Shown here: positions 17,575-48,807 of the stretch, one piece after another
Layout of the letters: every line of letters begins with the position of its first letter
Position numbering within the stretch: the stretch's first letter is position 1
Source of the DNA: Allomuricauda sp.
GTDB taxonomy: Bacteria; Bacteroidota; Bacteroidia; Flavobacteriales; Flavobacteriaceae
Assembly (NCBI RefSeq): GCF_028282265.1
Contig: NZ_JANQIH010000101.1
Location: 1-49,690 of the forward strand
Reading direction: 5' to 3'
DNA length: 49,690 nt
Notes under the pieces: generated by a model
Database searches by the model: none
Told to the model about the DNA's origin: nothing
What the model saw: the letters and a program-made list of their open reading frames with translations, nothing else
Made by a program: the position numbers and the translations under genes

Positions 17575-17575
17575 A

Positions 17576-18067: not shown

Positions 18068-18195
18068 CTGTTTAAAATTTAATAGTTTATTGAAAATGCA
18101 GAACTAAAAATTTTTGCACATTCAGTAATTCGCACAAAAAATTTAATCATGCCGGTGGGTATGCAATGATGAAATTTGTTTATGCTCATTTCATA

Positions 18196-19182: not shown

Positions 19183-19201
19183 GGCTTGTTTTTCGATGGT
19201 T

Positions 19202-23863: not shown

Positions 23864-23872
23864 ACAGTATAA

Positions 23873-25201: not shown

Positions 25202-25203
25202 AA

Positions 25204-29800: not shown

Positions 29801-29924
29801 TGTTCAAAACCCATTCACGTTCACAGATTTCGCAGGGCCAGATCCAGAGACGGGACTAAATAACTCCTTTGGTCAGACCTATGCCATAAAAACCTTCTTG
29901 TTTGGTTTAAAAGTAGCCTATTAA
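26844..29924 (+). CDS. susC: SusC/RagA-type TonB-dependent receptor
   Basis: The full-length 1026-residue receptor has a Sec signal (to SLAQ, about residue 20), a carboxypeptidase-like domain (TGVVVDETNVPLPSATV, VTDFDGNFTI), then LDEVVVIGYGSVKRSDLTGAVASLS, the plug with VDGVFFDNINVLNPADIEQIDILKD and a barrel ending FLFGLKVAY. It is the outer-membrane pore for the PUL's oligosaccharide. The 251-bp gap to the divergent DUF1080 gene holds no clear TAnnTTTG promoter, which fits control by an activator such as the downstream hybrid regulator. It is 18 bp from susD. Confidence 0.95.
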   Translation: MKLKLLMLLMFGVSFASLAQTQVTGVVVDETNVPLPSATVQEKGTSNGVVTDFDGNFTITISQEGATLTFSYIGFETKEIVWDGSTNLTVQLFPSSTGLDEVVVIGYGSVKRSDLTGAVASLSNETVTEQRKTDIGQAIQGRVAGVDVRTLNSKPGAPLSIQIRGNTVITANQGSERDGVSDDITTDPDQPLYVVDGVFFDNINVLNPADIEQIDILKDVSATAIYGARGANGVVIITTKNGIEGVTRITYDATFGLRSATNLPDFLSGAEYVEFVDDVLRAREWQGTDFSIDAYNNVLIDRSTEFQSPEELDNVANENYTDWAGLLRETGIQTSHTLGMSGGNNGLVYNASLGYLKDEGIMGIEDFERYNISLSASKKIGDKLTLGVKTYLALSEREAGSPELFRSSLRLAPTVSPFDANGELVIFPDVQDLRFANPFFEAQGSYTAETRSLDVIANVFLNYRHNDFFNFKTQFSPTVTSSRFGEYRGLLTRSSRNDPTRVRSSYDTRLRTSYTWDNIADFNFNITEGHNLKATLITSLFFDNTEGSDIEVRNFDTDAFSFFNTEGGTDIRSFGTFQTQETLASFAARLNYNIQDKYLFTFTGRYDGSSKLAAGNQWDFFPSAAFAWRASQEDFLKETNWLNNLKFRVSYGESGNDNVVDPFGSFAFLNQTSFLFGSDLATGQFVETLPNSELTWEVSRELNLGVDLAILNNRINLSFEYYNKTTDGSILARALSSVSGFGDGGLPTTVGNFGSVRNKGVELTLNTVNLRTDNFSWRTSFNFSTNDNEILELFGDTDQIPISTDNRFNGVLQVGAPIDAVWSYEVDGIYGTDDLEEAQSFGFLPGQYRFVDQNDDGAITQEDRVVLGSQSPDWIAGMTNTFNYKNLELNVQINTRQGTFGHSEFLQNFSTFQGDRAVFNSLDQDYWTPLNQDAKFPSPEYGEDASFSWFNTSFDFVRIGNIGLGYTFPRTILDKFGMSNFRLSLDVQNPFTFTDFAGPDPETGLNNSFGQTYAIKTFLFGLKVAY

Positions 29925-31616: not shown

Positions 31617-31661
31617 CATTTTAAAAATATCATTTGAGTTAGTTTAGTTTAATTTCAAGTA

Positions 31662-31688: not shown

Positions 31689-31742
31689 TTTTATTTCATG
31701 GCCAAAGAGCATTTTTGAGTGGTTAATACTTAATTTGATGTA

Positions 31743-33824: not shown

Positions 33825-33833
33825 ATGTAAACT

Positions 33834-35456
33834 ATGATTCTTAAAACAACATATCTTAAGCACTTGGTTTTTATAGTAATGGTAAATGCGCTTCTTTTTT
33901 CATGCAAAGAACCTTCCAAGCCGCAATTGATCAATACACAAGTTACCTTAGAATACGAGAAAAAGACCAGTGATACCGAATACCTTGTTTCTGACCACGG
34001 TATTCGGGCTGATGGTATGACCATAAACACTGAAAAGCTCCAAAACCTTATAGATACCATTAATAACAATGGCGGGGGCACTTTGGTTTTTCCAAAAGGG
34101 AACTATTTAACAGGTAGCTTACAGATGAGATCCAATGTGAGCCTTTACTTAAAAAAAGATGCCGTGTTATTGGGCAGTTCAGATCCGTTGCATTACAAGA
34201 CTATTGCCATGGAGGGCAAACCGGAGACGCCAAAAAAAGATGACAACTCGCAAATGGCACTATTGGTGGCCTATAAGGCAGATAACTTTAAAATATACGG
34301 GCAGGGCAAAATTGATGGACAGGGCAGGGCTTTGGCCCTTGCTATAGATAGTCTTCACCATGCGGGGATTAAAATAGACCCAAAGTATAATTATAGGCGA
34401 ATGCGTCCAAATGAGACCGCACGACCTAAACTCTTTCGTTTTTCCACATGTAAAAATGTAGCGGTTTTAGATTTGAATTTACACAATGGTTCTTGTTGGG
34501 GCCTGTCTTTTGAACTCTGTGAGCAGTTAAGGTTAGATAACTTAAAAATTGTGAACCGTGCATATTGGAACAATGATGGTATTGATATAACTGACTGTAA
34601 AAATGTTCAGGTGACCAATTGTGATGTTGACTCTGCTGATGATGGTATATGTCTAAAATCGTATTACCCTACACGTTACAATGACAGCATCTATATTGCC
34701 AACTGTACCATAAGAAGCAGTGCCAGCGCAATAAAGTTTGGTACGGCATCTTATGGCGGGTTTAAAAATGTGACGATTGAAAACGTTGAAGTATTCGACA
34801 CGTTTCGTTCGGCAATAGCCATTGAAAGCGTTGACGGTGGCGCTATTGAAAACATAAGGGTTTCCAACATTACAGCCAAAAATACCGGGAATGCCATTTT
34901 TATACGATTGGGCCATAGAAGCGGTGAAAAACCCGGTACCATAAAAAATGTTTTGATACAAGATATGAAAGTACAAGTGCCCTTTGGGCGCCCTGATATT
35001 GATTACGACCTGAGAGGTCCCGAGGTCGACTTCTTTCACAACCCATTTCCTTCATCAATAACAGGTATCCCAGAAGCAAAAGTTGAAGATATTACTATTG
35101 AGAACATTGAAATAAGCTACCCGGGGCGAGCTACAAAAGGCATGGCTTATGTTCCCCTTAGCCGTTTGGACCAAGTATCGAACAAGATTAAAGATTATCC
35201 AGAATTTTCGATGTTCGGTGAGTTACCGGCATGGGCCTTTTATGTGCGTCATGCCAAGGATATAAATTTCAAAAATATCCAATTAACACTTGAAGACAAC
35301 GACTTTCGGCCGGCCTTTGTCTTGGATGGGACTGAACAGGTTTTTATGCGTGATATTACCTTTCCTGATATGAAACACAAACAAATAGCGGTAAAAGATT
35401 CAGAAAATTTGAAGTTGGACGCGGGTTTAGAAGATCAAAAAATAGAAGTTGAGTAG
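33834..35456 (+). CDS. GH28-family glycosidase lipoprotein
   Basis: The 540-residue right-handed beta-helix protein has a lipoprotein signal (lipobox LFSC). GH28 motifs are NNDGID (about 242-247) and ADDGIC (265-270), which give the three catalytic Asp residues. The third motif, normally GHG, reads SSASAIKFGT and lacks the His, as in divergent exo-acting members from Bacteroidota. GH28 usually splits alpha-galacturonides. With no pectin enzymes around it, this one may act on another alpha-linked uronic acid. It lies 9 bp after the first GH92 and 57 bp before the second. Confidence 0.85.
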   Translation: MILKTTYLKHLVFIVMVNALLFSCKEPSKPQLINTQVTLEYEKKTSDTEYLVSDHGIRADGMTINTEKLQNLIDTINNNGGGTLVFPKGNYLTGSLQMRSNVSLYLKKDAVLLGSSDPLHYKTIAMEGKPETPKKDDNSQMALLVAYKADNFKIYGQGKIDGQGRALALAIDSLHHAGIKIDPKYNYRRMRPNETARPKLFRFSTCKNVAVLDLNLHNGSCWGLSFELCEQLRLDNLKIVNRAYWNNDGIDITDCKNVQVTNCDVDSADDGICLKSYYPTRYNDSIYIANCTIRSSASAIKFGTASYGGFKNVTIENVEVFDTFRSAIAIESVDGGAIENIRVSNITAKNTGNAIFIRLGHRSGEKPGTIKNVLIQDMKVQVPFGRPDIDYDLRGPEVDFFHNPFPSSITGIPEAKVEDITIENIEISYPGRATKGMAYVPLSRLDQVSNKIKDYPEFSMFGELPAWAFYVRHAKDINFKNIQLTLEDNDFRPAFVLDGTEQVFMRDITFPDMKHKQIAVKDSENLKLDAGLEDQKIEVE

Positions 35457-35513
35457 AGGCAGATTATGAGTATTTACATTGATATAGATAACAAAAAATC
35501 ACCTGAACGTATT

Positions 35514-37835
35514 ATGGGTAAGATGAGTTTATTGAAAATAGTGGCAATTATATTCACCTTACTTGTAATGGGCTGCAATCCAATGGACAATGGAAACCAT
35601 AAAGCAACAATGTTTGAAGGTGCCTCTCCTGTGGATTTTGTTTATCCGCAACTTGACACTAAGAATTCAAGATGGTTTCTTTTTTCGTCCACTAGTCGTC
35701 CTTTTGGAATGGTCAATTTAAGCCCTGATACCCAACTACAGGGTACCTGGGGAAGTGGTTACCGCTATGAAGTAGATACCATTAAAGGTTTTAGCCATAT
35801 TCATGGGTGGCAGTTATCGGGACTATCTGTAATGCCCGTAACGCTGACTCATAAGAATAGGGACTCCGTTTTTCAGGATTTTTATTCAAAATTCAGTCAT
35901 GAGAAAGAAGAGATAACGCCAGGCTATCATTCCCTTCAACTACAACGGTATGATATTGATGTTGCCCTCACCAGTACCAAACGTGTGGGATTCCATCAAT
36001 ACATATTTCCAAAGACCAGTGAAAGAGCAATTCTTTTTAATCTTAATGGAATTTTAGGGCCTTGTAAAATCATAAACGGGGAACTGGAAAAAACAGGAGA
36101 TGCTGAACTGATAGGAAATTTTGTCCTCGCTCCCACCAAAAGGAGACCTAAACCTACAAGCGTTTTTTTTAAGGTTGAACTGAACACAGCTATCTCCAAT
36201 CTGGAAAAAGATGAAAAAAGTGGCAATTATCTGGTGGCCCTAGGCAGAGAAAATGATTCCGTTTTAATGAAGGCTGCCATTTCCTATACTTCCGTGAAAA
36301 ACGCATCAACTAATTTGGAGGCAGAACTGCCGCATTGGGATTTTGAAAAAACCGTTAATGAATCCAAACTTGAATGGAATGAGCTTTTAGGAAGAATCAA
36401 AGTTGAAGGCAATAGCGAAAAGGCACAAAAACGATTTTATACCGACTTGTGGCATACGTTGCTTGGTCGTAAAATTATTAGTGACGTAAACGGTGCCTAC
36501 CCGGACAATACCGGAGAAAAGTTTAGAATTGGGCAACTACCGTTAAAAAATGACGGGACACCCCAATTCAACCATTACAATTCCGATGCATTTTGGGGCG
36601 CTCAATGGACCATAAATACACTTTGGGGACTGGTCTATCCAGAAATAAAAAAGGAATTTGTTCTATCGCTCTTACAGTACGAAAAAGATGGGGGCCTTAT
36701 ACCCAGAGGGCCATCAGGTGGTAACTATACCTATGTAATGACAGGAGCGTCCACTACCCCTTTTATTGTCAGCGCCATTCAGAAGGGCATTATAACCGAA
36801 GGTCTGGATACCATTTATCAGAAGCTCAAGAAAAACCATATGCCAAACGGTATCATGGAAAAGGCGGGATATGAGCATCATACCAACCTAGGAGGTGGCC
36901 TTAGATATTATTTGGACAAAGGATATGTGCCATACCCCATCCCAGAAGGCAAATTTGGATTGCATCAAGACGGAGCAAGCCTCACAATGGAATATGCATA
37001 TCAAGATTATACACTCGCCCAACTGGCAAAAAAACTAGGCTATGATGATGACTATCCCTATTTTAAGAGAAGGTCCAAAAATTATAGAAATGTATACGAT
37101 TCAGATACAGGTTGGATGCGGCCAAAAGATATAGACGGAAAGTGGAAAACCGAATTTGACCCTTTTAGCTATGAAAATGGATTTAATGAGTCGAATGCAT
37201 CGCAATCCACTTGGTTCGTCCCCCATGAATTGGACGGACTTGCCCAGCTAATGGGAGGTAAGGATAAAGCAATTGAAAGATTGAACGGACAGTTTAAAGA
37301 AGCCGAAAAGCTCAATTTTACAGCGGGCAGTTCGCACGAGCGGGAGATGCATCCTGATTACAGCCGTATCCCAATAAATTATGGAAACCAACCCTCTATG
37401 CAGACGGCATTTGTATTCCATAAATTGGGTAGGCCGGATTTGACCCAATATTGGTCCAGAAAGGTTGTAGAAAAGGTATTCAGTGGTCTATCCCCCGAAA
37501 CTGGTTATAATGGTGATGAAGATCAAGGTCTAATGGCCAGTCTGGCTGTGTTAATGAAAATTGGACTGTTTCAAATGAACGGTGGTACGGAAGAAAACTC
37601 CGAGTATCAGATTGGAAGTCCCATTTTTGATAAAATGACCATTGAGCTGAATCCTGACTTTTATTCCGGTAAAAGATTAGAAATAAACGTTTTGAACAAT
37701 AGCAAAGACAACGTTTACATTGATGGGATTTTGTTCAATGACAAGCCATTAAAATCATTTGCTATTTCGCATGAGGACATCACGAGCGGTGGTATTCTCA
37801 CACTTCAAATGTCTAGAAATAGTAGTATTGAATAA
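35514..37835 (+). CDS. Second GH92-family alpha-mannosidase lipoprotein
   Basis: The frame can start at 35466, but MGKMSLLKIVAIIFTLLVMGC from 35514 (or 35523) is a proper lipoprotein signal, so the first 16 residues are probably not translated. GH92 landmarks are SRPFGMVNLSPDTQLQGTWGSGY and GFSHIHGWQLSGLSVMPV at the N terminus, FNHYNSDAFWGAQWTINTLWGLVYPE in the middle and GYNGDEDQGLMASLAVLMKIGLFQMNGG in the base loop, where the usual SAWY is replaced by ASLA. It is distant from the first GH92 and probably has another linkage or sub-site. About 773 residues is normal length. Confidence 0.87.
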   Translation: MGKMSLLKIVAIIFTLLVMGCNPMDNGNHKATMFEGASPVDFVYPQLDTKNSRWFLFSSTSRPFGMVNLSPDTQLQGTWGSGYRYEVDTIKGFSHIHGWQLSGLSVMPVTLTHKNRDSVFQDFYSKFSHEKEEITPGYHSLQLQRYDIDVALTSTKRVGFHQYIFPKTSERAILFNLNGILGPCKIINGELEKTGDAELIGNFVLAPTKRRPKPTSVFFKVELNTAISNLEKDEKSGNYLVALGRENDSVLMKAAISYTSVKNASTNLEAELPHWDFEKTVNESKLEWNELLGRIKVEGNSEKAQKRFYTDLWHTLLGRKIISDVNGAYPDNTGEKFRIGQLPLKNDGTPQFNHYNSDAFWGAQWTINTLWGLVYPEIKKEFVLSLLQYEKDGGLIPRGPSGGNYTYVMTGASTTPFIVSAIQKGIITEGLDTIYQKLKKNHMPNGIMEKAGYEHHTNLGGGLRYYLDKGYVPYPIPEGKFGLHQDGASLTMEYAYQDYTLAQLAKKLGYDDDYPYFKRRSKNYRNVYDSDTGWMRPKDIDGKWKTEFDPFSYENGFNESNASQSTWFVPHELDGLAQLMGGKDKAIERLNGQFKEAEKLNFTAGSSHEREMHPDYSRIPINYGNQPSMQTAFVFHKLGRPDLTQYWSRKVVEKVFSGLSPETGYNGDEDQGLMASLAVLMKIGLFQMNGGTEENSEYQIGSPIFDKMTIELNPDFYSGKRLEINVLNNSKDNVYIDGILFNDKPLKSFAISHEDITSGGILTLQMSRNSSIE

Positions 37836-37886: not shown

Positions 37887-39197
37887 ATGTGCCACCATTC
37901 GATAAAGCATTTTTTCCTCTTCAACATCATAAGCATTTGCGCTTTTGCACAGCTTAAAAACGACCCGGTCCTTGAAAAAGATTTTATGGATTTAGGGTTT
38001 GGCTTATTTATCCATTGGAGCATAGACTCCCAATTGGGAAGCGTTATAAGCCATTCCATGGTTGGAGCATCAGAAGAATATGTAAATAAGTATATAAATG
38101 AGCTCCCCAAAACATTTTACCCAGATAAATTTGATGCTGATGAATGGGCACGTCTTTTCAAATTGACGGGAGCGGAGTATGTCGTTTTCACTACAAAACA
38201 CCACAATGGATTTTGTATGTGGGATACCAAAACAACGGACTTCAATATCATGAATACGCCTTATGGGAATGATATTACCGATATACTTTTCAAAGCTTTA
38301 CGTAAACAAGGACTTAAGATTGGAGTATATTTCTCCCCTGAGGATTTTAGCTTTTTAAACAAACAAGGAATTACGATTTCCCGCAGAGGCAAGATGAGCC
38401 AAATCACCAAAAATGTTGAGCTTTTGGAATACGATAAAGCACAAATAAAGGAGCTGATAACCGATTATGGGCCTATTGATGTACTATTTTTCGATGCCTT
38501 TGAAAGTGGTCCATTGGTTCAATATGTACATTCGATAGCCCCCAATATTCTTATCACCCGGGGTGAAATGGAAACCCCTGAGCAAAAAATTCCCAATGGT
38601 ACAATGCCCGATCCATGGGAAACTTGTATGACCATGGGCACCCAATGGCAGTATAAACCTACCAATGAAGAATATAAAGATGGCACGGAGTTGATAGAAA
38701 AACTTATTGAAGTTCGCGCCAAGGGCGGAAATTTTCTGTTAAATGTAGGTCCAAAACCAAATGGTGAAATCCCAATAGAACAAGAAGAGCTTCTGCGTGA
38801 ACTGGCTCTTTGGATGTTTGTTAACGATGAGGCTATAAAAAATATAAGGCCACTTCCTACCCTTGTCAAAGATGGATATTTATGGTTTACCCAAAACGAA
38901 GATGAGAACGCTGTGTATGCATTTGTAACCAAGCAAAAGGATTGGTTTAAGGGAAGACGCCGAAATTTTCTGATAAAAAACTTGAAGGCAACATTAAATA
39001 CTACGATTTCTGTATTGGGGCAGAATGATCTAGTTGTTGAATATTGGCCTGAAAATATTCCCACATCAAGATTTATTCAACATGAAGAATTGTTGGAAAT
39101 TTCAATAAGTAAAGCGCAAAGACTTTACAATGATAAAATTTGGCCCAATCCTATTGTGGTTAAATTGACCAACGTAGAATTCGTAGAATCAAAATAA
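37887..39197 (+). CDS. GH29 alpha-L-fucosidase, secreted
   Basis: The 436-residue protein has a Sec signal (to about residue 22, CAFAQ). GH29 landmarks are GFGLFIHWSIDSQLGS, FDADEWARLFKLTGAEYVVFTTKHHNGFCMWDTKTTDFNI, and IDVLFFDAFES with the nucleophile Asp, where most members have WFDG. GGNFLLNVGPKPNGEI closes the barrel. It removes alpha-L-fucose (or alpha-L-galactose). It lies between GH92 and the phosphoinositide lyase gene (13 bp), so it belongs to the same glycan-stripping set. Confidence 0.9.
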   Translation: MCHHSIKHFFLFNIISICAFAQLKNDPVLEKDFMDLGFGLFIHWSIDSQLGSVISHSMVGASEEYVNKYINELPKTFYPDKFDADEWARLFKLTGAEYVVFTTKHHNGFCMWDTKTTDFNIMNTPYGNDITDILFKALRKQGLKIGVYFSPEDFSFLNKQGITISRRGKMSQITKNVELLEYDKAQIKELITDYGPIDVLFFDAFESGPLVQYVHSIAPNILITRGEMETPEQKIPNGTMPDPWETCMTMGTQWQYKPTNEEYKDGTELIEKLIEVRAKGGNFLLNVGPKPNGEIPIEQEELLRELALWMFVNDEAIKNIRPLPTLVKDGYLWFTQNEDENAVYAFVTKQKDWFKGRRRNFLIKNLKATLNTTISVLGQNDLVVEYWPENIPTSRFIQHEELLEISISKAQRLYNDKIWPNPIVVKLTNVEFVESK

Positions 39198-39210
39198 GAA
39201 TTAGCAGGTA

Positions 39211-40278
39211 ATGTGTTTCAAAGAAAAACTCCATCTATTCTTCTTGATTGTTCTCTTACATTCAAGCGGATATGGTCAATCGGAAATCGCCTTGAACGAC
39301 ATTCAGGTTATTGGCAGTCACAATAGTTATAAAATTGCTATTGAAAAACCATTATGGAACTACCTTTTTCAATTGGATTCAACAATGGCAAAGTCCTTAC
39401 AGTACGACCATCCATCATTAACAGACCAATTGGATTTGGGTTTACGCAATTTAGAACTGGATATTTTTCATGATCCCGTAGGTGGCAGATATGCCAAGCC
39501 AAAAGGCATTGCTATCGTAAAGCAAACCAGGGAAACCCCTTTGCCCTTTGATATAAATTCTGAGTTGAAAGCACCTGGACTTAAAATGTTTCATATCCAA
39601 GATATAGATTTCAGGAGCCATCAATTGTTATTTAAAAACGGGTTGCGCGAACTTAAAGAATGGTCCAATAAAAATCCGAACCACACCCCCATTTTCATAC
39701 TGATTAATGCAAAAGATAGTAAGGTGCCTGAAACTACTGACCCGTTACCGTTTACAAAGGCCGCCTTAGATAGTTTGGATTCAGAAATCATGAGTGTTCT
39801 ATCTAAAGATAAACTCATTACCCCAGATATGGTACGGGGTGATTATGATAGTTTGGAAGAAGCCATAACCATAAAAGGATGGCCAAATTTAGAAGACCTT
39901 AGAGGCAGATTTATTTTTGTTCTTGATGAAAATGAAAAAAAGATAAACGCCTACATCGATGGACATCCATCATTGAAAAATAGGATGTTGTTTGTAAACA
40001 TTCCTGAAGGAAACCCTGAGTCCGCCTTTCGCATAATCAATGATCCCATAAAGAATTTCAACTATATCAGGACCTTGGTGTCAAAAGGTTATCTGGTTCG
40101 AACAAGGGCAGATGCTGGAACTATGGAGGCACGAAGCAACGATTATACCCGATTTGAAAAAGCAAAAGCATCTGGAGCTCAGATAATTTCTACCGATTAC
40201 TATATTCCAACAACTCTATTTTCTTCAAACTTTCAGATAAATTTTGGCAAAGGCGTGTATGAGCGAATTCGGAAGTAA
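39211..40278 (+). CDS. Secreted Ca-dependent phosphoinositide-specific phospholipase C-like enzyme
   Basis: The 355-residue protein has a Sec signal (to about residue 23) and a TIM-barrel phosphodiesterase. Catalytic and metal residues are visible: GSHNSYK with His37, LELDIFHDP with Glu82, Asp84, His87, Asp88, and FHIQD with His128 and Asp131. The pattern matches the Ca-dependent PI-PLC family (PF16670 type). The expected reaction is cleavage of the phosphodiester between inositol and a lipid, giving inositol phosphate and diacylglycerol or a ceramide. It overlaps the next gene, a phosphatase, by 20 bp. Phosphodiesters other than inositol lipids remain possible. Confidence 0.85.
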   Translation: MCFKEKLHLFFLIVLLHSSGYGQSEIALNDIQVIGSHNSYKIAIEKPLWNYLFQLDSTMAKSLQYDHPSLTDQLDLGLRNLELDIFHDPVGGRYAKPKGIAIVKQTRETPLPFDINSELKAPGLKMFHIQDIDFRSHQLLFKNGLRELKEWSNKNPNHTPIFILINAKDSKVPETTDPLPFTKAALDSLDSEIMSVLSKDKLITPDMVRGDYDSLEEAITIKGWPNLEDLRGRFIFVLDENEKKINAYIDGHPSLKNRMLFVNIPEGNPESAFRIINDPIKNFNYIRTLVSKGYLVRTRADAGTMEARSNDYTRFEKAKASGAQIISTDYYIPTTLFSSNFQINFGKGVYERIRK

Positions 40279-42133
40279 ATATATTCTTGGTAGTTTTTTT
40301 CTTGCCCTTTTAGTCCTGTTCTCATCCTGTAAGACGAAGGAAGGACAAAAACCGCAAGTGAAAATTGCTTTTCTGGCAGATATACACCTTCAGGATATCT
40401 GCGCCGAATTCTCAGATACGGACTATAGAGGTGTGTTAAATTCCGAAACCGGCAAATACCACACCATTAGAACTATGGGAGCGCAAGTACGCTCGACCCG
40501 CTTGTTCAATGAAAATTATTTTGCCTTTACGACCGCACTAGAAGATATAGCAAGAAGAGATATTAAGCTGGTTGTCCTTCCCGGTGATTTCACGGATGAT
40601 GGGCAACCAATGAATGTGAGGGCCCTTAAAAAAATACTTAAAGCGTATTCAAAAAACCATGGGATTCAATTTTTAATGACTACCGGAAATCATGATCCCG
40701 TTCGTCCATTTACTCAGGAAAGAGGTAAAACAAATTTTCTTGGAGAAGATGGTAAGGAACAGCCTATTTTCAGTGATTCGAGCATGTTAAAACCCTCAAA
40801 TACATATGCTTTGACCCCAATAATCACAGAAGACATCAAAGAATGGGGCTATCAAGAGATTACCGACGAGCTGGCCGATTTTGGTTTTTACCCGAGAAAA
40901 GAATTTTTCTATTGGGAAACTCCATATTCCACATATTCGTATGACAATTATACCTACAGAAAAGCGAGCGATGAGGCGTCATTGACAAAAAGAAGTTATC
41001 CTATTTCAGATACAAATAATCCTATTCCGGATGTAAGCTATTTGATAGAACCTATTCGAGATATCTGGCTTTTGGCTATTGATGGCAATGTATATGTACC
41101 AAAAGAAAACATATCAAATGAGGCAAATACGGCTTCCCATTTTCATGGATCAAGTGTTGGCTACAATGATGTTGTTGTACATAAGAAACATTTGGTGGAT
41201 TGGGTAAAAAAAGTATCCAGAGAAGCCCAACGCAGGGATAAAAATCTGATTGCTTTTAGTCATTACCCCATAGTAGAATTTAACGATGGGGCCTCTGAAG
41301 CCATAAAAAGTCTTTTTGGGTCCGATAAATTGCAATCACACAGGATTCCAAACAAAGAAGTGTCGGAAATTTTTGCTGATGCGGGACTACAAATTCATTT
41401 TGGTGGACATATGCACTTAAATGATACCGGGGTACATACTTCTGCAAAAGGGAACACGCTCTTTAACATACAGACACCCTCACTGGCCGCCTATCCGTCA
41501 GCTTATAAAATATTGACTTTAAATTCCAAGCATGAATATCAAGTTGAGACCGTTTTATTAAGTGACGTTCCCCAATTCAATTCGTTGTTCTCATTGTATT
41601 CTAGGGAACACCAACACTTAAGGGAAACTCGAGATACACTGATTTGGGACAAGGACATCTTACGTTCAAAAAACTACAAAGACTTCACTAATTGGCATCT
41701 GAATGAGTTGGTTCGTTTTCGATTTATTCCAGATGATTGGCCCAAACAATTTGTGGAGAACGTCATATTAAAATCAGGAAAAGAATTACTCTCTGAAAGT
41801 ACCATAAATTCCGGTAAACTTTTATCTCGATTAGATGCAATTAATGTCACTCTTTCGGATTTTGAGGAATGGACGGGTTTGGATATGATTCTTGATTTCT
41901 ACAAGATGTACAAGGCAGACGAGCTTGCTTTTTCAGAAATAAGTGCCCATCGACTGAAACAATATGAATTGTTGTGCGAGCAGTGGCAAAATTCAGAGGA
42001 AGAAAACCTACGGTCCTGGTCAAGGATTTTTTATAGCTCGTTTAACGGTGCACCCTCTAATAATTTTACCATTGATTTGAAAACTGGAACGATAGAACGG
42101 TTGGGTACGGAAAAATCACTTGTAAGTGATTGA
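40259..42133 (+). CDS. Calcineurin-like metallophosphoesterase lipoprotein
   Basis: The ATG at 40259 is preferred over an in-frame TTG at 40244. The 624-residue protein has a lipoprotein signal (lipobox LFSSC). The five metallophosphoesterase blocks are all present: FLADIHLQD, VLPGDFTDDG, TTGNHDPV, AFSHYPIVEF and HFGGHMHLND. A C-terminal part of about 200 residues is uncharacterised. Placed in overlap behind the phosphoinositide lyase, it is the likely phosphatase that turns the released inositol phosphate into free inositol outside the inner membrane. Specificity is inferred, not shown. Confidence 0.88.
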   Translation: MSEFGSKYILGSFFLALLVLFSSCKTKEGQKPQVKIAFLADIHLQDICAEFSDTDYRGVLNSETGKYHTIRTMGAQVRSTRLFNENYFAFTTALEDIARRDIKLVVLPGDFTDDGQPMNVRALKKILKAYSKNHGIQFLMTTGNHDPVRPFTQERGKTNFLGEDGKEQPIFSDSSMLKPSNTYALTPIITEDIKEWGYQEITDELADFGFYPRKEFFYWETPYSTYSYDNYTYRKASDEASLTKRSYPISDTNNPIPDVSYLIEPIRDIWLLAIDGNVYVPKENISNEANTASHFHGSSVGYNDVVVHKKHLVDWVKKVSREAQRRDKNLIAFSHYPIVEFNDGASEAIKSLFGSDKLQSHRIPNKEVSEIFADAGLQIHFGGHMHLNDTGVHTSAKGNTLFNIQTPSLAAYPSAYKILTLNSKHEYQVETVLLSDVPQFNSLFSLYSREHQHLRETRDTLIWDKDILRSKNYKDFTNWHLNELVRFRFIPDDWPKQFVENVILKSGKELLSESTINSGKLLSRLDAINVTLSDFEEWTGLDMILDFYKMYKADELAFSEISAHRLKQYELLCEQWQNSEEENLRSWSRIFYSSFNGAPSNNFTIDLKTGTIERLGTEKSLVSD

Positions 42134-42151
42134 TAAATTGTAAATTACATT

Positions 42152-44989
42152 ATGCATTGGATGTTTCAATTTTGTGAAAGACTGTACCGGAAAGAATTGA
42201 TTCCGATACTATTCCTATGTTTTCTGGGTAATTCTCAGAATATCAAGTTCGAACATTACAATGATAATGATGGGTTGTCCCACAATTCTGTTCGCCATAT
42301 CACACAAGATAACAGTGGTCTCCTATGGTTAGGCACATTTTCGGGCCTTAATCGTTTTGATGGGTATCAGTTTAGACCCTACCTGAGTAGTTTGACCAAT
42401 ACCTACGGACTCAAAAATGATGATATTACAGCCTTGGAGTTCGATAGTGATTCCAATGAACTTTGGATTGGCACCAGAAATGGATTGACCTATTTGAATT
42501 TAGAGCGCCATTCCTTTCGAACGTTTTTATCAGAGGCCGATAATCCAGATAGTCTGGGCGATAGCGAAATACGTTCCGTACTTGTGGACAGCAAAAAAAG
42601 AGTGTGGGTAGGCACAAAGACTCGAGGACTTTACAGGTATTTGCGTAGTGAAGATGTTTTTATCAAGATTAATATCGATGGATTCAATTATGTTAAGGAA
42701 ATTTTCGAAGATAACCAGGGAAATATTTGGGTCGGTTCGTACGGAAAAAAATCTGTTGCGAAAATAGTGTTGGACAATGACGGAAACAGTAACCGTATAT
42801 TCCAGTACACCTTATCACCATCTGATCTAGAAGAACAAAACCCCTATTTGAATTTTATCTACCAAGATCATAAATCAGATATTTTTATCGGAACACGAAA
42901 TGGCCTTTTCAAACTAGACGAGGAAAAAAATGCTTTTAAAAATCTATATATAGAAAACCGAGGAGTCAGAGAGCAACTAGGACCTCATTTTATTTCAGTG
43001 GCGCGTTCCCCCGAAGGACAATATTGGGTCGGTACGTTGGGTGGTCTTCTTACCTGTAACCGACTAGAAGATATAGCAGATGGAAACTACGATTGGCACT
43101 ATACCATACTTTCAGATGATAGTTCTGTTGTAGATAACCTTGTTTATGCGCTTTATTTTGATACTTCTGGAGTATTATGGATTGGCACCGAAGATGGACT
43201 TGATAAATATGATCCGTACAAAAACCAGTTCAAACTTAATAAGAGCATCTCGTTGCACATTGACAATCAAGTTCCTCGAATACGCGGATTTTCAAAAACA
43301 TATGACAATAAAGTAATTGTTGCTACTAGGCACAATGGTTTGTTCGTCATGCATGAAGATGAGTTCCTGCCACTTTTTGACAAAAAATATGATATTGCCA
43401 GCATCTATTCTGAAGATGGCAAAGTTTTCTATTGCGGGCTTTGGGATGGTCGTATTTTGGTCTACGACTATATCAAAAATACTTGGAGAGATGTAGATTT
43501 GGGATTCCAAGGCTCGTCGGTGCTCACATTTAGCAACTTCAGTGCTACCAGCATGATAGCTGGCTCTTTTGAGGGCGGAGCACTTTTTTTTGATAAAAAA
43601 ACATTGACTCCAATTCAAGATATGGGAAGACTGCTTCCCGGGCGGTCCATAAATAAAATCGTAGTAGAAAATAACAATAAAAAGATATGGTTCGCTACCG
43701 AGGATGGTGTAGCTAGCTTAGATCTAATAACAAATGACATTAAGAATTACAGGGCCTCTACAGATTATCCAGGAGGCCTACCACATGATAACGTAAGCGA
43801 TATCATCGTAGACGCCCAGAATAATTTATGGGCCGCAACAAGACTCGGTCTCAGTTATTACAATTCGAAAGAGGATGCTTTTGAAAGGTTCGATGGTCCT
43901 GCTGAACTATCTGGTAAATGGATAACCGATATGCTTACTGACGCCAACGGTATGATCTGGTTAAACATGAACAACAGTATTGCCAAATTGGATACAGAAA
44001 ACAATGAGGTCAGTGTTTACAATACGAATAGTGGTAATCGATTGGATGTGTTCAGTTCAAGTGGATTTTATCACATAGCGGGCTCAGATATCTTCCTCGG
44101 GGGCAAGAATGGTGTCATATATTTTTCACCTTACAGCTTGAAGGAAAACCAGTGGTCACCAAAACCTTTTATCACAGAATTTAAAGTTCAGAACAAATTA
44201 GTCTATCCAGGGGTCAAAATCAACAAACAAAAGTTTGATATGCAGGATCTTAATTATGGAAAAAAGGTGGCTCTCAATTATAACAACCGAAATTTTTCAC
44301 TACAGTTTTCCAACCCTTCTTTCTCCAACGAACGTTTGAACAAATATGAGTACAAGCTGGAAGGTTTTGATAAGGACTGGATTACTGTCGGAAGCAATTC
44401 CAGAACCGTACAGTATACAAACCTCTATCCCGACAAGTATACCTTTAAGCTACGTTCCAGCAATAGCAATGGATATTGGAGTGATTTTGCTTCTTATGAT
44501 ATCACCATAAAATCACCATTTTGGCTAACTCCAGAAGCTTTGTTGATTACACTGATTGTTTTATTAATCGGTTTTTTTATTGTCCGAAGAGAATTAAAAA
44601 ACAAATCCCGTTTGCGTCAAGCTTTGCTTTTTGAAAAAATAAAACAGGAGCGTATTGAAAAGTTGAACAATGAAAAATTTCGATTTTTCACTAACATTTC
44701 ACATGAACTTAGAACACCTCTGACATTAATTTTAGGTCCGGCCAAAGACCTTGTTAAAAAGTCGAACGAAATACAAAATCATTTTTTGGAGTCACGCTCC
44801 CAACTTATCCATCAAAATGCCAATCTGTTGCTTAACCTCGTTAACCAAATACTGGACTTTAGAAAGGCACAAACAGGAGAGTTGAGCCTAAAAGTCGGTG
44901 AAATCGATATATTACAGCAATGCCAGAATATTTTTGACTCCTTTAAAGATTGGGCCGTTAGCAAGAACATATCCTTTAACTTTAATTGA
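42152..44989 (+). CDS. Hybrid two-component system, N-terminal part: sensor and histidine phosphoacceptor domain (ends at an in-frame TGA)
   Basis: These 945 residues are the first two thirds of an HTCS regulator. After a signal sequence come Reg_prop beta-propeller repeats (GLLWLGTFSGLNRFDG, VWVGTKTRGLYRY, to about residue 690), a Y_Y_Y domain (YEYKLEGFDKDWITVG), one membrane helix (about 790-812) and HisKA with the phosphoacceptor His851 in NISHELRTPLTLILGP. The frame stops at TGA 44987-44989. Eight sense codons and an ATG at 45014 follow in the same frame, carrying the missing ATPase domain. Either the gene is broken by one nonsense change, or the kinase is made as two chains. Confidence 0.9.
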   Translation: MHWMFQFCERLYRKELIPILFLCFLGNSQNIKFEHYNDNDGLSHNSVRHITQDNSGLLWLGTFSGLNRFDGYQFRPYLSSLTNTYGLKNDDITALEFDSDSNELWIGTRNGLTYLNLERHSFRTFLSEADNPDSLGDSEIRSVLVDSKKRVWVGTKTRGLYRYLRSEDVFIKINIDGFNYVKEIFEDNQGNIWVGSYGKKSVAKIVLDNDGNSNRIFQYTLSPSDLEEQNPYLNFIYQDHKSDIFIGTRNGLFKLDEEKNAFKNLYIENRGVREQLGPHFISVARSPEGQYWVGTLGGLLTCNRLEDIADGNYDWHYTILSDDSSVVDNLVYALYFDTSGVLWIGTEDGLDKYDPYKNQFKLNKSISLHIDNQVPRIRGFSKTYDNKVIVATRHNGLFVMHEDEFLPLFDKKYDIASIYSEDGKVFYCGLWDGRILVYDYIKNTWRDVDLGFQGSSVLTFSNFSATSMIAGSFEGGALFFDKKTLTPIQDMGRLLPGRSINKIVVENNNKKIWFATEDGVASLDLITNDIKNYRASTDYPGGLPHDNVSDIIVDAQNNLWAATRLGLSYYNSKEDAFERFDGPAELSGKWITDMLTDANGMIWLNMNNSIAKLDTENNEVSVYNTNSGNRLDVFSSSGFYHIAGSDIFLGGKNGVIYFSPYSLKENQWSPKPFITEFKVQNKLVYPGVKINKQKFDMQDLNYGKKVALNYNNRNFSLQFSNPSFSNERLNKYEYKLEGFDKDWITVGSNSRTVQYTNLYPDKYTFKLRSSNSNGYWSDFASYDITIKSPFWLTPEALLITLIVLLIGFFIVRRELKNKSRLRQALLFEKIKQERIEKLNNEKFRFFTNISHELRTPLTLILGPAKDLVKKSNEIQNHFLESRSQLIHQNANLLLNLVNQILDFRKAQTGELSLKVGEIDILQQCQNIFDSFKDWAVSKNISFNFN

Positions 44990-45013
44990 GAGCACGATGC
45001 TATTACTGGATGG

Positions 45014-46237
45014 ATGGATAAGGATAAATTGGATAAGATATTGTACAATCTTTTGTCCAATGCAATAAAATTTACGGATAGTAATGGTAGCGTAGACCTG
45101 TTCGTAGGATTCACCGACGACTCAGAAAAGCACCTGTTGCTCGAAATAAGTGACGACGGTATTGGGATACCACAATCAGCCCAAAAGAATATCTTTTCAC
45201 GCTTTTACCAGGCAAGAAACGGTAAAGACAGTACAACCGGCTCAGGTATCGGGCTCTCACTGGTAAAGTCCCTTGTAGAAGTTCATAAGGGAACAATAGT
45301 ACTCGAGAGTGAACCAAACAAAGGCTCGATTTTTACGGTGAAGATACCAATTGAACGAAAGTATTTTGATGAAAATGAAATACGAAACGTATCAATAAAA
45401 ACATCGGGTATAAAAGCATTGGGAAAAACTACCCCTAAAAAGAAGATTGTACAATCAACCCATATCAAAGAGAAAATACTCATTATAGAAGACAATATTG
45501 AATTACGGAACTATGTTGAGGAATATCTTTCAGAGTACTACAAGGTATATTGTGCCGAGAATGGACAGGAAGGCCTGGTAATGTGTCGTAAGATAATGCC
45601 CATACTATGTGTTGCGGACATTATGATGCCAATTATGGATGGACTTCTATTCTGCGAAGAATTAAAAAAGGATGAGGCCATAAGCCACATTCCCGTTATT
45701 TTATTGACCGCACGTTCTGAAAATGAGGATAAGGTACATGGATACAATGTAGGTGCCGATGACTATATGGTAAAACCTTTTGATCCTGCATTGCTAAAGA
45801 CCAGAATCGTAAATATCATTAATTCACGAAAAGAACTGAAGGCTAAGTTTTCAGGTGAGGTCGACAGCGAGATATCCCTTTTGACACACTCGCCCATCGA
45901 TGAAGAATTCATGAAAAAAATAACTGAACTGATCGATAGAAAAATTGGTGAGGCCGATTTAACCACTTCCTTGTTGTGCCAAGAACTAAATATGAGCTCT
46001 TCCAAATTATATAGGAAAATCAAAGAGTTGACCGATTTGGCACCTAACGAATTCATTCGCACGATACGTTTAAAACAGGCGGCAGGTTTACTGAGAAGCA
46101 GGCGATACAACGTTTCTGAGGTCTCTGTCCTAGTGGGATTTAACGACCCCTTGTATTTCAGTCGTTGTTTTAAAAAGCAATTTGGCTATCCGCCCAGTCA
46201 ATTGATTAAAAAAAATATACAAACAAAATCAATATAA
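45014..46237 (+). CDS. Hybrid two-component system, C-terminal part: ATPase, receiver and AraC-type DNA-binding domains
   Basis: These 407 residues continue the upstream frame. They hold the HATPase_c domain, complete from the N box (ILYNLLSNAIKFTD) through ISDDGIGIP, FSRFYQ and GSGIGLSLVKSLVEVHKG; a receiver domain with Asp202 in VADIMMPIMDG and Lys in MVKPF; and an AraC helix-turn-helix pair (VGFNDPLYFSRCFKKQFGYPP). Merged with the upstream part the protein would be about 1361 residues, the usual HTCS length. The ATG 24 bp after the stop could allow re-initiation, though no strong ribosome-binding site is seen. Regulation of the surrounding PUL is expected. Confidence 0.9.
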   Translation: MDKDKLDKILYNLLSNAIKFTDSNGSVDLFVGFTDDSEKHLLLEISDDGIGIPQSAQKNIFSRFYQARNGKDSTTGSGIGLSLVKSLVEVHKGTIVLESEPNKGSIFTVKIPIERKYFDENEIRNVSIKTSGIKALGKTTPKKKIVQSTHIKEKILIIEDNIELRNYVEEYLSEYYKVYCAENGQEGLVMCRKIMPILCVADIMMPIMDGLLFCEELKKDEAISHIPVILLTARSENEDKVHGYNVGADDYMVKPFDPALLKTRIVNIINSRKELKAKFSGEVDSEISLLTHSPIDEEFMKKITELIDRKIGEADLTTSLLCQELNMSSSKLYRKIKELTDLAPNEFIRTIRLKQAAGLLRSRRYNVSEVSVLVGFNDPLYFSRCFKKQFGYPPSQLIKKNIQTKSI

Positions 46238-46260
46238 ATCAGTGGACTTGAAAATATCCA

Positions 46261-46268
46261 TATTTTTG
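46261..46268 (+). promoter_or_regulatory. Putative -7 box before the MIOX gene (TATTTTTG)
   Basis: TATTTTTG matches TAnnTTTG and lies 72 bp before the MIOX start. No TTTG is at the proper -33 distance. It sits in one arm of an AT-rich inverted repeat (about 46251-46266). It could let MIOX and the symporter be expressed apart from the long PUL transcript. Confidence 0.3.
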
Positions 46269-46340
46269 AAATGATATTCCATGTTCTCTAGTTTCTGAAA
46301 CAGTACTTTAGCTTTCCTACGTTAACCAAATACAGTGTCT

Positions 46341-47219
46341 ATGAAACCATCTGAAAATAAGAATCTTCGGCAGCCAATGAACGATGTGGATGACTGGGAA
46401 GATGATTTGTTACGGCGCTACCCAGACCCTGACGAAACGGTAAAAGAGAAAGAAGACTACAGAAATTATGTCGATTCTGAAAGGGTTGATGGCGTACGTG
46501 AATTCTATAGGTTAAACCATAAGTTTCAGACCTATGATTTCGTAAAAGAAAAGGAAGCCGAATTTCTGAAATTTGATAAACGTACCATGACACTTTGGGA
46601 AGCTGTCGATTTTCTTAATACGCTTGTTGATGATAGCGACCCAGATATCGATTTGGATCAATTGCAGCACTTGTTGCAAACATCCGAGGCGATTCGTGCC
46701 GATGGACATCCTGATTGGTTTGTGCTGACCGGTTTCTTACACGATGTGGGCAAAGTACTCTGTCTCTTTGGCGAACCGCAGTGGGCCGTTGTGGGCGATA
46801 CTTTCCCTGTTGGATGTGCCTTTTCTGATAAGATAGTATATCCTGAGTTTTTTGAGGAGAATCCAGATTCAAAAGACGAAAGATATACAAGTAAACTTGG
46901 GGTGTACAAGGAAAATTGCGGGTTGGACCAAGTTAAAATGAGCTGGGGGCATGATGAATATCTGTATCAAATCATGAAAGATTATTTGCCCGAGCCAGCA
47001 CTTTATATGATTCGCTACCATTCGTTCTATGCCCAGCACCGTGAAGGAGCATACGATCATTTAATGGACAAAAAAGACCATGAAATGTTTGAGTGGGTCA
47101 AAAAATTCAATCCCTACGATTTGTATTCAAAAGCACCCACGCCACCAGATTCCAAAGCATTAAAGCCCTATTATGAAGATTTGGTTGCTAAATATTTGCC
47201 AGCAACATTGAAATTCTAA
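46341..47219 (+). CDS. myo-Inositol oxygenase (MIOX)
   Basis: The 292-residue protein (ATG at 46341; GTG two codons earlier is less likely) matches animal and plant MIOX almost end to end. This di-iron enzyme uses O2 to cleave myo-inositol to D-glucuronate. All six metal ligands can be placed: His110 (HLLQTSE), His134 and Asp135 (FLHDVGK), His204 (SWGHDEYL), His227 (IRYHSF) and Asp260 (PYDLYSK). [16 protein letters not shown] is also a family hallmark. MIOX is uncommon in bacteria, where inositol is usually oxidised by IolG. The product enters the UxaC route coded at 19202-22622. The symporter follows after 16 bp. Confidence 0.95.
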
Positions 47220-47235
47220 TTGGGTAACTGCCATA

Positions 47236-48807
47236 ATGATCTCTGCATATATTGGTTTTTTCGGATTTACGCTATTCGTTATCATTTATACAGTTTATAA
47301 GCTTAGAAAAGATAACTTTAGCACGGCAAAAGGTTATTTTCTAGCCGGAAAAAGTCTAACAGGACCCATAATTGCAGGGTCAATGATTTTGACCAATATT
47401 TCTACCGAGCATTTGATAGGAATGAACGGAAGTTCCTATAAAAACGGGATTATAGTCATTGCTTGGGAGGTTACTTCCGCGATTGCGCTTGTCATTGCTG
47501 CAATTTTCTTTTTGCCACGGTTCATTCGGATGGGCCTGACCACTATTCCGGAGTTTTTAGAAAAACGTTTTGACGGCTTAACCCGTTCTATCGTGGCCTT
47601 TTTATTAATGCTTTCCTTTGTGGCTACCTTGTTGCCTATTGTATTGTACTCGGGTGCTATCAATATTGAAAGTGTTTTCGATTTTTCTACACTATTTAGT
47701 GTTCCTAAGAGTGTAGCTATGATCTACATGGTCTTAATCATCGGCGTAATAGGCTCTTTGTATGCCATTTTTGGGGGATTAAAAGCAGTTGCATATTCTG
47801 ATACTCTAAATGGTGTGGGACTTATGTTGGGGGGCTTATTGATACCTGGAATTGCATTGTATGAAATTGGTGGAGGCAATATACTTGAAGGGCTCTCTAC
47901 CGTATATGATTTTGCTCCTGATAAATTTGATATTATTGGAAAGCCAGATTCCGTTTTGCCCTTTTCTGTATTGTTTACAGGGCTGATGATCAATCAAATT
48001 TATTTTTGGGGAATGAACCAAGCTATCATTCAAAGAGCATTTGGAGCAAAGAACTTGATTGAAGCGCAGAAAGGTCTTATTTACACAGGTGTTCTTAAAC
48101 TCTTGGTACCCCTGATTATTGTTTTGCCGGGGTTGATTGCCTTTTACTATTTTCAAGACTCCTACTACGAAACACCAGATTTGATTTACCCCATGCTGGT
48201 GAAGAAAATATTGCCAACGTATTTGTTTGGTTTTTTCGCAGCGGTTATTCTTGGTGCGGTCCTTAGCACATTCAATAGTGTACTTAATTCAGCAAGTACC
48301 GTATTCTGCTATGATATCTATAAAAAAACTATTGATAAAAACGTTTCGGATGCAAAACTAGTTCGGTATGGAAAATTGGTATCGGTACTATTGGCCATCA
48401 TATCAATAACTGTCGCCCCTCTAGTGGCTTATGCTCCTGATGGGCTTTATTTTCTTTTACAGGAATTAAATGGTATTTTCTTTATCCCTATTTCTTCGGT
48501 AATAATCGCTGGAATTTTTGTAAAACAAATTAACGCAATTGGGGCAAAAGCGGGGCTTTTCTTCGGATTCACCTTTTACATTCTGACCACATTTGTTTTT
48601 GACGTAAATATCCATTTTGTACATCTTTGGGGTATAGAGTTCGTTTTAAATTTTATTATCATGTTTATTGTTTCTAAAATGTATGGGGATACAGTTTACA
48701 CAGAAAAAACGTACGAAGATACTTCAGACAAAAAATGGCCTTTGGTGAATATTATGGGCGCTATACTTGTAGTAGCAACGGTTTTGATTTATGTTCTACT
48801 TTCATAA
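47236..48807 (+). CDS. Sodium:solute symporter (SSS family), probable inositol uptake
   Basis: The 523-residue protein has about fourteen membrane segments. SSS landmarks are the N-terminal DNFSTAKGYFLAGKSLTGPIIAGSMILTNISTEHLIGMNG, GLTTIPEFLEKRFDG, and GAVLSTFNSVLNSASTVFCYDIYKK, which supplies the sodium-site Ser residues of this group. It resembles SGLT- and SMIT-like sugar and inositol carriers. Its position 16 bp after MIOX makes myo-inositol the best guess for the substrate. It is the last gene of the PUL; no strong terminator is visible after it. Confidence 0.9.
   Translation: MISAYIGFFGFTLFVIIYTVYKLRKDNFSTAKGYFLAGKSLTGPIIAGSMILTNISTEHLIGMNGSSYKNGIIVIAWEVTSAIALVIAAIFFLPRFIRMGLTTIPEFLEKRFDGLTRSIVAFLLMLSFVATLLPIVLYSGAINIESVFDFSTLFSVPKSVAMIYMVLIIGVIGSLYAIFGGLKAVAYSDTLNGVGLMLGGLLIPGIALYEIGGGNILEGLSTVYDFAPDKFDIIGKPDSVLPFSVLFTGLMINQIYFWGMNQAIIQRAFGAKNLIEAQKGLIYTGVLKLLVPLIIVLPGLIAFYYFQDSYYETPDLIYPMLVKKILPTYLFGFFAAVILGAVLSTFNSVLNSASTVFCYDIYKKTIDKNVSDAKLVRYGKLVSVLLAIISITVAPLVAYAPDGLYFLLQELNGIFFIPISSVIIAGIFVKQINAIGAKAGLFFGFTFYILTTFVFDVNIHFVHLWGIEFVLNFIIMFIVSKMYGDTVYTEKTYEDTSDKKWPLVNIMGAILVVATVLIYVLLS

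Follow-up and report, generated by a model that had tools for sequence, protein, structure and literature searches.

A plus-strand polysaccharide utilization locus of Allomuricauda with a predicted phosphoinositide lyase and a myo-inositol oxygenase, and its likely place in the use of phosphoinositol-linked glycans

Gene content of the locus

The stretch of DNA analysed here, called the window throughout, is the entire contig NZ_JANQIH010000101.1 (49,690 nucleotides) of an Allomuricauda sp. genome of 3.87 Mb (GCF_028282265.1; 94.9% complete, 312 contigs). Between positions 26844 and 48807 it carries a run of genes in which a SusC/SusD pair precedes a set of glycoside hydrolases (GH), a predicted phosphatidylinositol-specific phospholipase C (PI-PLC, hereafter PLC), a metallophosphoesterase, a hybrid two-component system (HTCS) regulator, a myo-inositol oxygenase (MIOX) and a sodium:solute symporter (SSS), as collected in Table 1. 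Judged by its gene content, that is, adjacent susC and susD with the co-directional glycosidases GH92, GH28, GH92 and GH29, the locus is a polysaccharide utilization locus (PUL). Given that the intergenic gaps span only -35 to 126 bases, it is plausible that the whole run constitutes one operon. Signals and lipoboxes were called by reading the N-termini by eye, which also holds for the secreted PLC and the phosphoesterase lipoprotein of Table 1; MIOX appears unsignalled.

An initial annotation had named the genes from GH92 to the SSS symporter, and Pfam recovers each of them; its description of a plus-strand, tightly spaced run behind susCD is borne out, no gap exceeding 126 bases. It had also remarked on the absence of sulfatases, and none turned up among the PUL proteins scanned. 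Its range of 37887-48807 for the whole PUL has to be widened, as this holds GH29 to SSS only, and SusCD, both GH92 genes and GH28 lie at 26844-37835.

Table 1. Features of the gene run (plus strand) and of the neighbouring block (minus strand), with the profile matches that identify them
Feature	Position	Strand	Evidence and remarks
SusC/RagA TonB-linked outer membrane porin	26844..29924	+	TIGR04056 E 1.1e-238; Pfam
SusD-like surface lipoprotein	29943..31616	+	PF07980 1.3e-23, PF14322 3.5e-23; lipobox ...FSAC-DD by eye
GH92 (GH92a), lipoprotein by eye	31743..33824	+	PF07971 7.7e-98; matches solved alpha-mannosidases, e.g. 6f8z
GH28, lipoprotein by eye	33834..35456	+	PF00295 1.7e-24
GH92 (GH92b), lipoprotein by eye	35466..37835	+	PF07971 4.8e-132; 94% identity to GH92 of locus L034
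GH29, alpha-L-fucosidase family, secreted by eye	37887..39197	+	PF01120 3e-69
Secreted Ca2+-dependent PI-PLC family enzyme	39211..40278	+	PF16670 6.8e-125
Calcineurin-like metallophosphoesterase lipoprotein	40259..42133 (open reading frame listed from TTG 40244)	+	PF00149 3.8e-12
HTCS, interrupted	42152..46237	+	Reg_prop, Y_Y_Y, HisKA / HATPase_c, Response_reg, HTH_18
MIOX, myo-inositol oxygenase family	46335..47219	+	PF05153 6.2e-110
SSS symporter, NF007790/PRK10484 family	47236..48807	+	NF007790 666.4 bits, cut-off 401
TRAP (tripartite ATP-independent periplasmic) transporter DctM, DctQ, DctP; candidate uronate uptake (inferred)	16270..19230	-	PF06808, PF04290, PF03480
UxaC glucuronate isomerase	19202..20620	-	PF02614 1.7e-197
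UxuA mannonate dehydratase	20620..21795	-	PF03786 2.5e-132
SDR (short-chain dehydrogenase/reductase), candidate fructuronate/mannonate oxidoreductase (inferred)	21804..22622	-	PF13561 2.2e-42
Two Gfo/Idh/MocA oxidoreductases	22679..25207	-	PF01408 etc.; membership of the system uncertain
PF06439 3-keto-disaccharide hydrolase, divergent from SusC	25204..26592	-	1.8e-91; membership of the system uncertain

The phospholipase, the phosphoesterase and the inositol genes

Central to the locus is the PLC, which matches PF16670 with 416.9 bits (cut-off 29.9) over positions 2-327 of 329, and finds in the PDB the Ca2+-dependent PI-PLCs of Pseudomonas sp. (5fyo, E 1e-06) and Streptomyces antibioticus (3h4w, E 3.2e-05). 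An AlphaFold2 model built on a 35-sequence alignment reaches a mean predicted local distance difference test score (pLDDT) of 92.7, and every one of its best ten Foldseek matches in the PDB is a Ca2+ PI-PLC chain (E about 1e-12 to 1e-13), at an identity of about 16% in the structural alignment and with a template modelling (TM) score by query of only 0.45-0.55. The residues H37, N38, E82, D84 and H128, which we take to be catalytic or Ca2+ residues, are invariant in 35 of 35 aligned PLCs. By sequence and model, the enzyme is of the Ca2+ PI-PLC family and fold class that it shares with 5fyo and 3h4w, and cleavage of a lipid is predicted. Its relatives include the PLC of a metagenome-assembled genome (MAG) labelled Croceivirga (95% identical) and that of Flagellimonas sp. 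389 (90%).

The phosphoesterase probably starts at ATG 40259, overlapping the end of the PLC gene. D41, H43, GD 109-110, GNHD 143-146, H335, H384 and H386 are invariant in all 20 aligned sequences, presumably as the metal-binding residues typical of this superfamily, and the top solved match is Listeria Lmo2642 (2xmo, E 9.4e-08). MIOX enzymes convert inositol to D-glucuronate; the one encoded here, the sole MIOX match in the window genome, covers positions 2-249 of the 249 of its profile (367.1 bits, cut-off 25) and falls in a mostly PUL-linked clade. Together with the SSS symporter (Pfam E 2.1e-58), a putative inositol carrier, and with UxaC and UxuA beside the run, it makes up a set for inositol uptake and catabolism.

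Recurrence of the locus among relatives

Relatives were drawn from several samples, in which G numbers denote genomes and L numbers loci. The family sample comprises 299 Flavobacteriaceae genomes, with full length taken as above 380 bits for PF16670 and above 300 bits for MIOX; PLC neighbourhoods were mapped in all 21 family genomes, up to about 20 kb per side where the contig allows. Further loci were added by similarity to the window PLC (25, L034-L058), which lean to its near kin, and from a 395-genome phylum sample (25); the family and phylum samples are free of such a bias. Weak partial matches were left out of both, as was G411 of the phylum sample, with an incomplete PLC. Genes on the maps were labelled by BLAST against clusters that take their names from scanned representatives, and unlabelled genes are mostly unscanned. 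With repeats dropped (L048, L037, L038, G490b) and cut contigs excluded (L035, L052), 65 deduplicated uncut loci remain, of which 27 are GH92-type, with a GH92 within 10 kb of the PLC, and 38 are not; 17 of the 27 came via similarity to the window PLC. The choice of distance affects one locus, G006, which becomes GH92-type only when the limit is set at 15 or 20 kb instead of 10 kb. Fisher and binomial values given below ignore shared ancestry. A protein of 539-547 residues that clustered with the PLCs in L038, L043, L045, L049 and G203 was rejected, the scanned L043 and L045 copies being SASA-domain esterases.

PF16670 occurs in 24 of the 299 family genomes (full-length in 21) and a full-length MIOX in 44 by hand count, while 17 genomes carry both (Fisher p 1.3e-12). 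In 11 of these 17 the two genes lie within 25 kb of each other, for which random placement gives p of about 2e-17 (binomial). Moreover, nearness of MIOX goes with that of GH92: where a GH92 lies within 10 kb of the PLC (10 of 21), MIOX is found within 20 kb in all 10, against 1 of the 11 others. The exception is G006, where GH92 lies on the opposite strand at a distance of 10-15 kb, the MIOX frame holds two TGA codons and the PLC falls outside the main clade described below; under a 20-kb rule for GH92 the counts become 11 of 11 and 0 of 10 (Fisher p 2.8e-6). The MIOX of G006 (L063/L064) is of another, lower-scoring clade, and its SSS gene is split.

Across the 65 loci, GH92-type loci differ from the rest in the phosphoesterase (26/27 vs 15/38), HTCS (26/27 vs 3/38), GH28 (13/27 vs 0/38), GH29 (10/27 vs 1/38) and alkaline phosphatase (0/27 vs 6/38). 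The conserved order is PLC-(GH115)-phosphoesterase-HTCS, often with MIOX-SSS, and it recurs in Flagellimonas, Flavobacterium, Wenyingzhuangia, Maribacter, Aureibaculum, Cellulophaga, Polaribacter, Aestuariibaculum, Ancylomarina and a Prolixibacteraceae MAG. Environmental strains with the locus include Flavobacterium glycines Gm-149, Wenyingzhuangia marina DSM 100572 and Maribacter ulvicola DSM 15366. A search for the gene order in other Bacteroidota, as the initial annotation had suggested, thus finds it in loci of many genera, which makes chance a poor explanation. In a tree of 67 PLCs (the best phmmer match per locus), 27 of the 28 with a GH92 within 15 kb group in one clade (support 99/97), together with five without GH92 and two from cut contigs. 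Outside it lie the remaining 32 PLCs with no GH92 nearby, whose loci resemble in gene content the system PUSI of Flavobacterium johnsoniae.

This comparison bears on one of the two main rivals to the reading preferred below, which are phosphate scavenging and, as discussed further below, the anchors of eukaryotic proteins. In the former, the locus would obtain phosphate from phosphatidylinositol as PUSI does, its glycosidases being passengers. The available excerpt of the account of PUSI (PMC8115612) gives it PusCD1, a PF16670 and a PF00149 protein and induction by phosphate depletion, and among the 38 loci without GH92, SusC lies within 10 kb in 29 and SusD in 28. Yet 27 of the 28 GH92-type PLCs form a group to which most PLCs from loci lacking GH92 do not belong, and the distribution of HTCS, alkaline phosphatase and MIOX given above is a signature of carbon use; with a separate PLC clade, HTCS and MIOX speaking against it, plain phosphate scavenging appears improbable. 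The PLC of PUSI itself is outside the tree, in which most PLCs from loci of PUSI-like content fall into other clades.

Some SusCD-PLC loci without GH92 adjoin TRAP DctMQP and UxaC genes (L073/L074 of G153, L089/L090 of G289, L091/L092 of G172), as if glucuronate use went with the PLC even where glycosidases are missing.

Glycosidase cassettes and a probable inositol phosphoceramide target

GH115 is a family of alpha-glucuronidases. In 21 of the 27 GH92-type loci, and in none of the 38 others, a GH115 or GH115-like gene is found within 10 kb; in the family sample, with 20 kb for both genes, the figures are 9 of 11 with GH92 and 0 of 10 without. A full GH115 directly follows the PLC in 15 of the 27 (the L043 protein matches PF15979 with E 1.8e-133), and a shorter, divergent GH115-like protein occurs in eight (L034, E 1.4e-21), of which G207 and L045 also carry a full GH115; the GH115-like protein of L045 is a fragment of 156 residues at the slice edge. 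For the protein of L034 (L034:4247-6307), the model has a mean pLDDT of 70.2, the ten best Foldseek matches in the PDB are GH115 (TM 0.51-0.56) and all five phmmer matches are GH115 chains. The activity of the GH115-like proteins is uncertain, because their aligned sequences show a gap where those of GH115 have the MRGEHD/GEDD stretch.

All nine GH115-like matches of the family sample (52-73 bits) stand behind SusCD and beside GH92, and four of them are minimal SusCD-GH115-like-GH92-HTCS loci (L183-L186) with neither PLC nor MIOX in view. Such minimal loci would suit an ordinary mannose- or uronate-containing glycan, be it an N-glycan, a pectin side chain or an algal glucuronomannan, to whose PUL the PLC and MIOX were joined by chance; GH92 and GH29 are indeed common in N-glycan PULs, and GH28 is a pectin family. 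The closeness of PLC and MIOX in 11 of the 17 genomes having both argues against this explanation, which we hold to be very unlikely. An ordinary N-glycan or mannan PUL was set aside for leaving PLC, MIOX and GH115 unexplained.

Further glycosidases are added in smaller numbers. GH89 and an HGSNAT-like acetyltransferase occur together in 5/27 vs 0/38 loci and GH125 in 3/27 vs 0/38; GH43 is present in four and GH2 in three of the 27, and some GH92-type loci also carry GH3 or a second kind of GH29. This assortment invites comparison with the glycosyl inositol phosphorylceramides (GIPCs), whose head is given as alpha-Man-(1-4)-alpha-GlcA-(1-2)-myo-inositol, that is, mannose on glucuronate on inositol, in the part of PMC4230332 available, with variants bearing glucosamine or N-acetylglucosamine on the glucuronosyl inositol, and arabinose, galactose, glucose and mannose in the Hex-GIPC heads of Arabidopsis, in that of PMC9113257. 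Taken together, the predicted enzymes of the relatives come close to a parts list for such heads. An alpha-1,2 glucuronate linkage is named, there on xylan, in the titles of solved GH115 structures (7pug, 7pxq).

The same cassettes have to be weighed against glycosylphosphatidylinositol (GPI) anchors of eukaryotic proteins such as arabinogalactan proteins. Classical bacterial PI-PLCs cleave GPI, and for an anchor built as Man-Man-Man-GlcN-Ins-P-lipid (mannose, glucosamine, inositol, phosphate) the PLC would free the anchor glycan, GH92 and GH125 would take the mannoses, and the HGSNAT-like protein with GH89 the glucosamine. GH92 is in these loci by definition, and the few loci with GH125 or with GH89 and HGSNAT-like genes count on the same side. 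The GPI core contains, to our knowledge, no glucuronate, despite which GH115-type genes stand in 21 of the 27 loci; GH89 and GH125 are confined to a minority and are absent from the window. The presence of GH115 points to glucuronosyl inositol phosphoceramides rather than to GPI anchors as the predicted substrate, and a GPI target is unlikely.

MIOX clades and loci without the phospholipase

A very long branch (100/100) separates the two deep clades of the MIOX tree. In clade 2, which comprises 24 genomes, the ten loci viewed all have MIOX adjoining SSS with no glycosidase label. The 20 sample genomes of clade 1 have MIOX in a PLC locus (10), in a SusCD/glycosidase locus without PLC (seven: G115, G127, G144, G153, G164, G211, G297) or in neither (three: G135, G137, G249), neighbourhoods having been viewed for all ten of those lacking a nearby PLC. 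In G153 and G115 a GH92 is followed by GH115, phosphoesterase and HTCS genes, with MIOX-SSS on the opposite strand and no PLC between; G153 and G127 carry a PLC elsewhere in the genome.

Loci of this kind, with GH115, phosphoesterase, HTCS and MIOX and no PLC (G153, G115), support the notion that the substrate is a soluble inositol-phosphate glycan or glycosyl-inositol already freed by the host or by other enzymes, the PLC being accessory. Infected plants accumulate inositol phosphate glycans, according to the available part of PMC11496612. On the other side, in all 27 GH92-type loci, a set selected for the PLC, the next gene after the PLC is GH115, the phosphoesterase or, in a single case, GH29, as if the PLC were integral, and we consider a soluble substrate quite improbable.

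As a separate observation, the G164 locus (L173) combines GH92, GH28, GH115 and HTCS with MIOX-SSS and holds a PAP2-family phosphatase with FG-GAP/UnbV proteins (L173:5707-7050), and neither a PLC nor a metallophosphoesterase is in view there.

The window as a variant

Compared with L034, the window is 93-99% identical from GH92b to SSS, while its SusC is 29% identical and its SusD gave no match at the cut-off used; GH92a and GH28 occupy the place of the L034 GH115-like gene. L058 and L050 likewise have GH92-GH28-GH92 and no GH115 in view. It looks as if the front of the locus (26844-35456 against L034:1-6307) had been exchanged as a cassette and the inositol-phosphate part kept.

How the window would cleave glucuronate from inositol is a matter of guesses, for which GH28, GH92a or the oxidoreductase/3-keto-hydrolase set come to mind. 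Alternatively, an enzyme of another family may act, glucuronate may be absent from the substrate, or the locus may be incomplete. GH28 or GH92a as a simple substitute for GH115 is doubtful, given that GH28 and GH115 co-occur in G044, G152, G260, G228, L047, L051, L039, L040 and L042.

Proposed mechanism and its weighing

That the locus serves phosphoinositol-linked glycans is very probable; that their source is the GIPC-type head of plants, or of eukaryotes with a similar head, is on balance probable and is the best single reading. Gene identities, the fold class of the PLC, the conserved order, co-occurrence and phylogenetic clustering form the basis of the scheme that follows, in which the substrates, the sequence of events, the cellular locations and the regulation are all proposed. 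Capture and import of the lipid or its head group would fall to SusCD, and removal of outer and alpha-mannosyl residues to GH29, GH28 and the GH92 enzymes; the PLC would release inositol phosphate from the lipid and the metallophosphoesterase lipoprotein would take off the phosphate. In most relatives, GH115 could then free alpha-1,2-glucuronate from inositol. The SSS symporter would bring in inositol for oxidation by MIOX to D-glucuronate, so that glucuronate from GH115 and from MIOX could share one route, with UxaC, the SDR, UxuA, a 2-keto-3-deoxygluconate (KDG) kinase and a 2-keto-3-deoxy-6-phosphogluconate (KDPG) aldolase channelling the inositol- and sugar-derived glucuronate to central metabolism. 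The HTCS may sense the released glycan.

The initial annotation had likewise proposed a PUL that degrades glycosylated inositol phospholipids and draws on both their sugars and their inositol. The order of genes in the relatives, their GH115, GH89 and HGSNAT-like genes and the adjoining glucuronate genes strengthen that proposal, and the window itself, with its alpha-glucuronidase missing and its regulator interrupted, weakens it; judged on gene content, the relatives fit an inositol-glycolipid target better than does the window alone.

Several observations weigh against a GIPC-type target. For the alpha-glucuronosyl-inositol bond, no GH115 and no GH67 match was found in the window genome, the search covering these two alpha-glucuronidase families in a genome 94.9% complete; the window is moreover one of six of the 27 GH92-type loci without GH115 in view, the others being L044, L046, L050 (cut upstream), L054 and L058. 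The HTCS is in two pieces, an in-frame TGA at 44987-44989 parting HisKA from HATPase_c, where its relatives in L034 (96-97% identical) and L036 have a single frame of 1361 residues; the stop could reflect either a true loss or a fault of the assembly. GH28 lacks an evident task in the GIPC head, GH115 acts also on xylan and arabinogalactan (PDB titles 7pug, 5by3), and GH89 with HGSNAT-like, GH125, GH43 and GH2 are each found in a minority of loci. MIOX lies within 10 kb in 12/27 GH92-type loci vs 1/38, 10-kb flanks and contig ends concealing some cases. UxaC shows no specificity for such loci (0/27 vs 3/38 at 10 kb; 4/11 vs 3/10 at 20 kb in the family sample). Finally, similar MIOX-PULs stand without a PF16670 PLC alongside in G115, G127, G153, G164 and G211, and the lipid cut is therefore not obligatory; in such loci it may be made elsewhere, by others, or be needless.

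A wider proposal is plausible, if slightly doubtful: the GIPC-directed loci would form a modular class in Bacteroidota, with a core of GH92, PLC, phosphoesterase, HTCS, PUL-type MIOX and symporter and with exchangeable cassettes matched to the head, glucuronate and inositol converging on one catabolic route. The proposed cassettes are GH92/GH125 for mannose, HGSNAT-like with GH89 for glucosamine or N-acetylglucosamine, GH115 or GH115-like for glucuronate, and GH43, GH2, GH29 and GH95 for outer arabinose, galactose and fucose.

GIPCs are called major sphingolipids on Earth by a review (PMC11907402, in the part available). If the GIPC reading is true, membrane lipid head groups would join polysaccharides as substrates of PULs, and there would be a bacterial route by which the carbon, inositol and phosphate of GIPCs re-enter the food web. 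Most of one MIOX clade would gain a specific function and the divergent GH115-like family a context. Moreover, the PLC, GH115 acting on glucuronosyl inositol, and the HGSNAT-like protein with GH89 would be candidate enzymes for structural work on GIPCs, where such tools appear scarce.

Relation to known systems

Gut Bacteroides PULs with GH92, directed at high-mannose N-glycan or yeast mannan, have SusCD, GH92 alpha-mannosidases and HTCS, as does the window; we know of no PI-PLC, MIOX or inositol route in them. The nearest published locus found is PUSI (Fjoh_4168-4173), which the available part of its description sets apart from CAZyme-bearing PULs (PMC8115612). The window shares with it SusCD, PF16670 and PF00149, a core that was already known. 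The locus is nevertheless not PUSI, because it carries glycosidases, four in the window; that part of the description places none alongside PUSI and mentions neither HTCS nor MIOX. Botrytis cinerea BcGIPC-PLC1, a phospholipase C that is likewise secreted, releases inositol phosphate glycans from GIPC, as is proposed for the PLC of the window, but it is a single fungal enzyme, annotated as a sphingomyelinase, and not a bacterial locus (PMC11496612). A search of open-access full text, which largely leaves out subscription papers and preprints, gave no GIPC or inositol-lipid PUL among the matches listed, and the part of a paper on inositol lipids of gut Bacteroidetes that was available (PMC9246714) says nothing on their breakdown.

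Neighbouring genes

The minus-strand block upstream of the run (14423-26592) holds a GH78 gene in addition to the features of Table 1. UxaC and UxuA function in glucuronate catabolism, and by their position next to the PUL, these genes and the TRAP transporter could consume glucuronate made by MIOX. A PfkB-type kinase is encoded at 5643-6647, and two genes of the KDPG-aldolase family lie elsewhere in the genome. The GH28 of the run has as its top NCBIfam model the BT4146 rhamnogalacturonidase (NF049898), at 263.9 bits, under the cut-off of 500.

All or part of the PF06439 and Gfo/Idh/MocA set (22679-26592) recurs near the PLC locus in G207, G229, G002, G260 and L053. At the other end of the contig, 2786-7774, a PL7-type alginate lyase, an RraA-like protein, the PfkB kinase and an SBF transporter form an alginate-type set.

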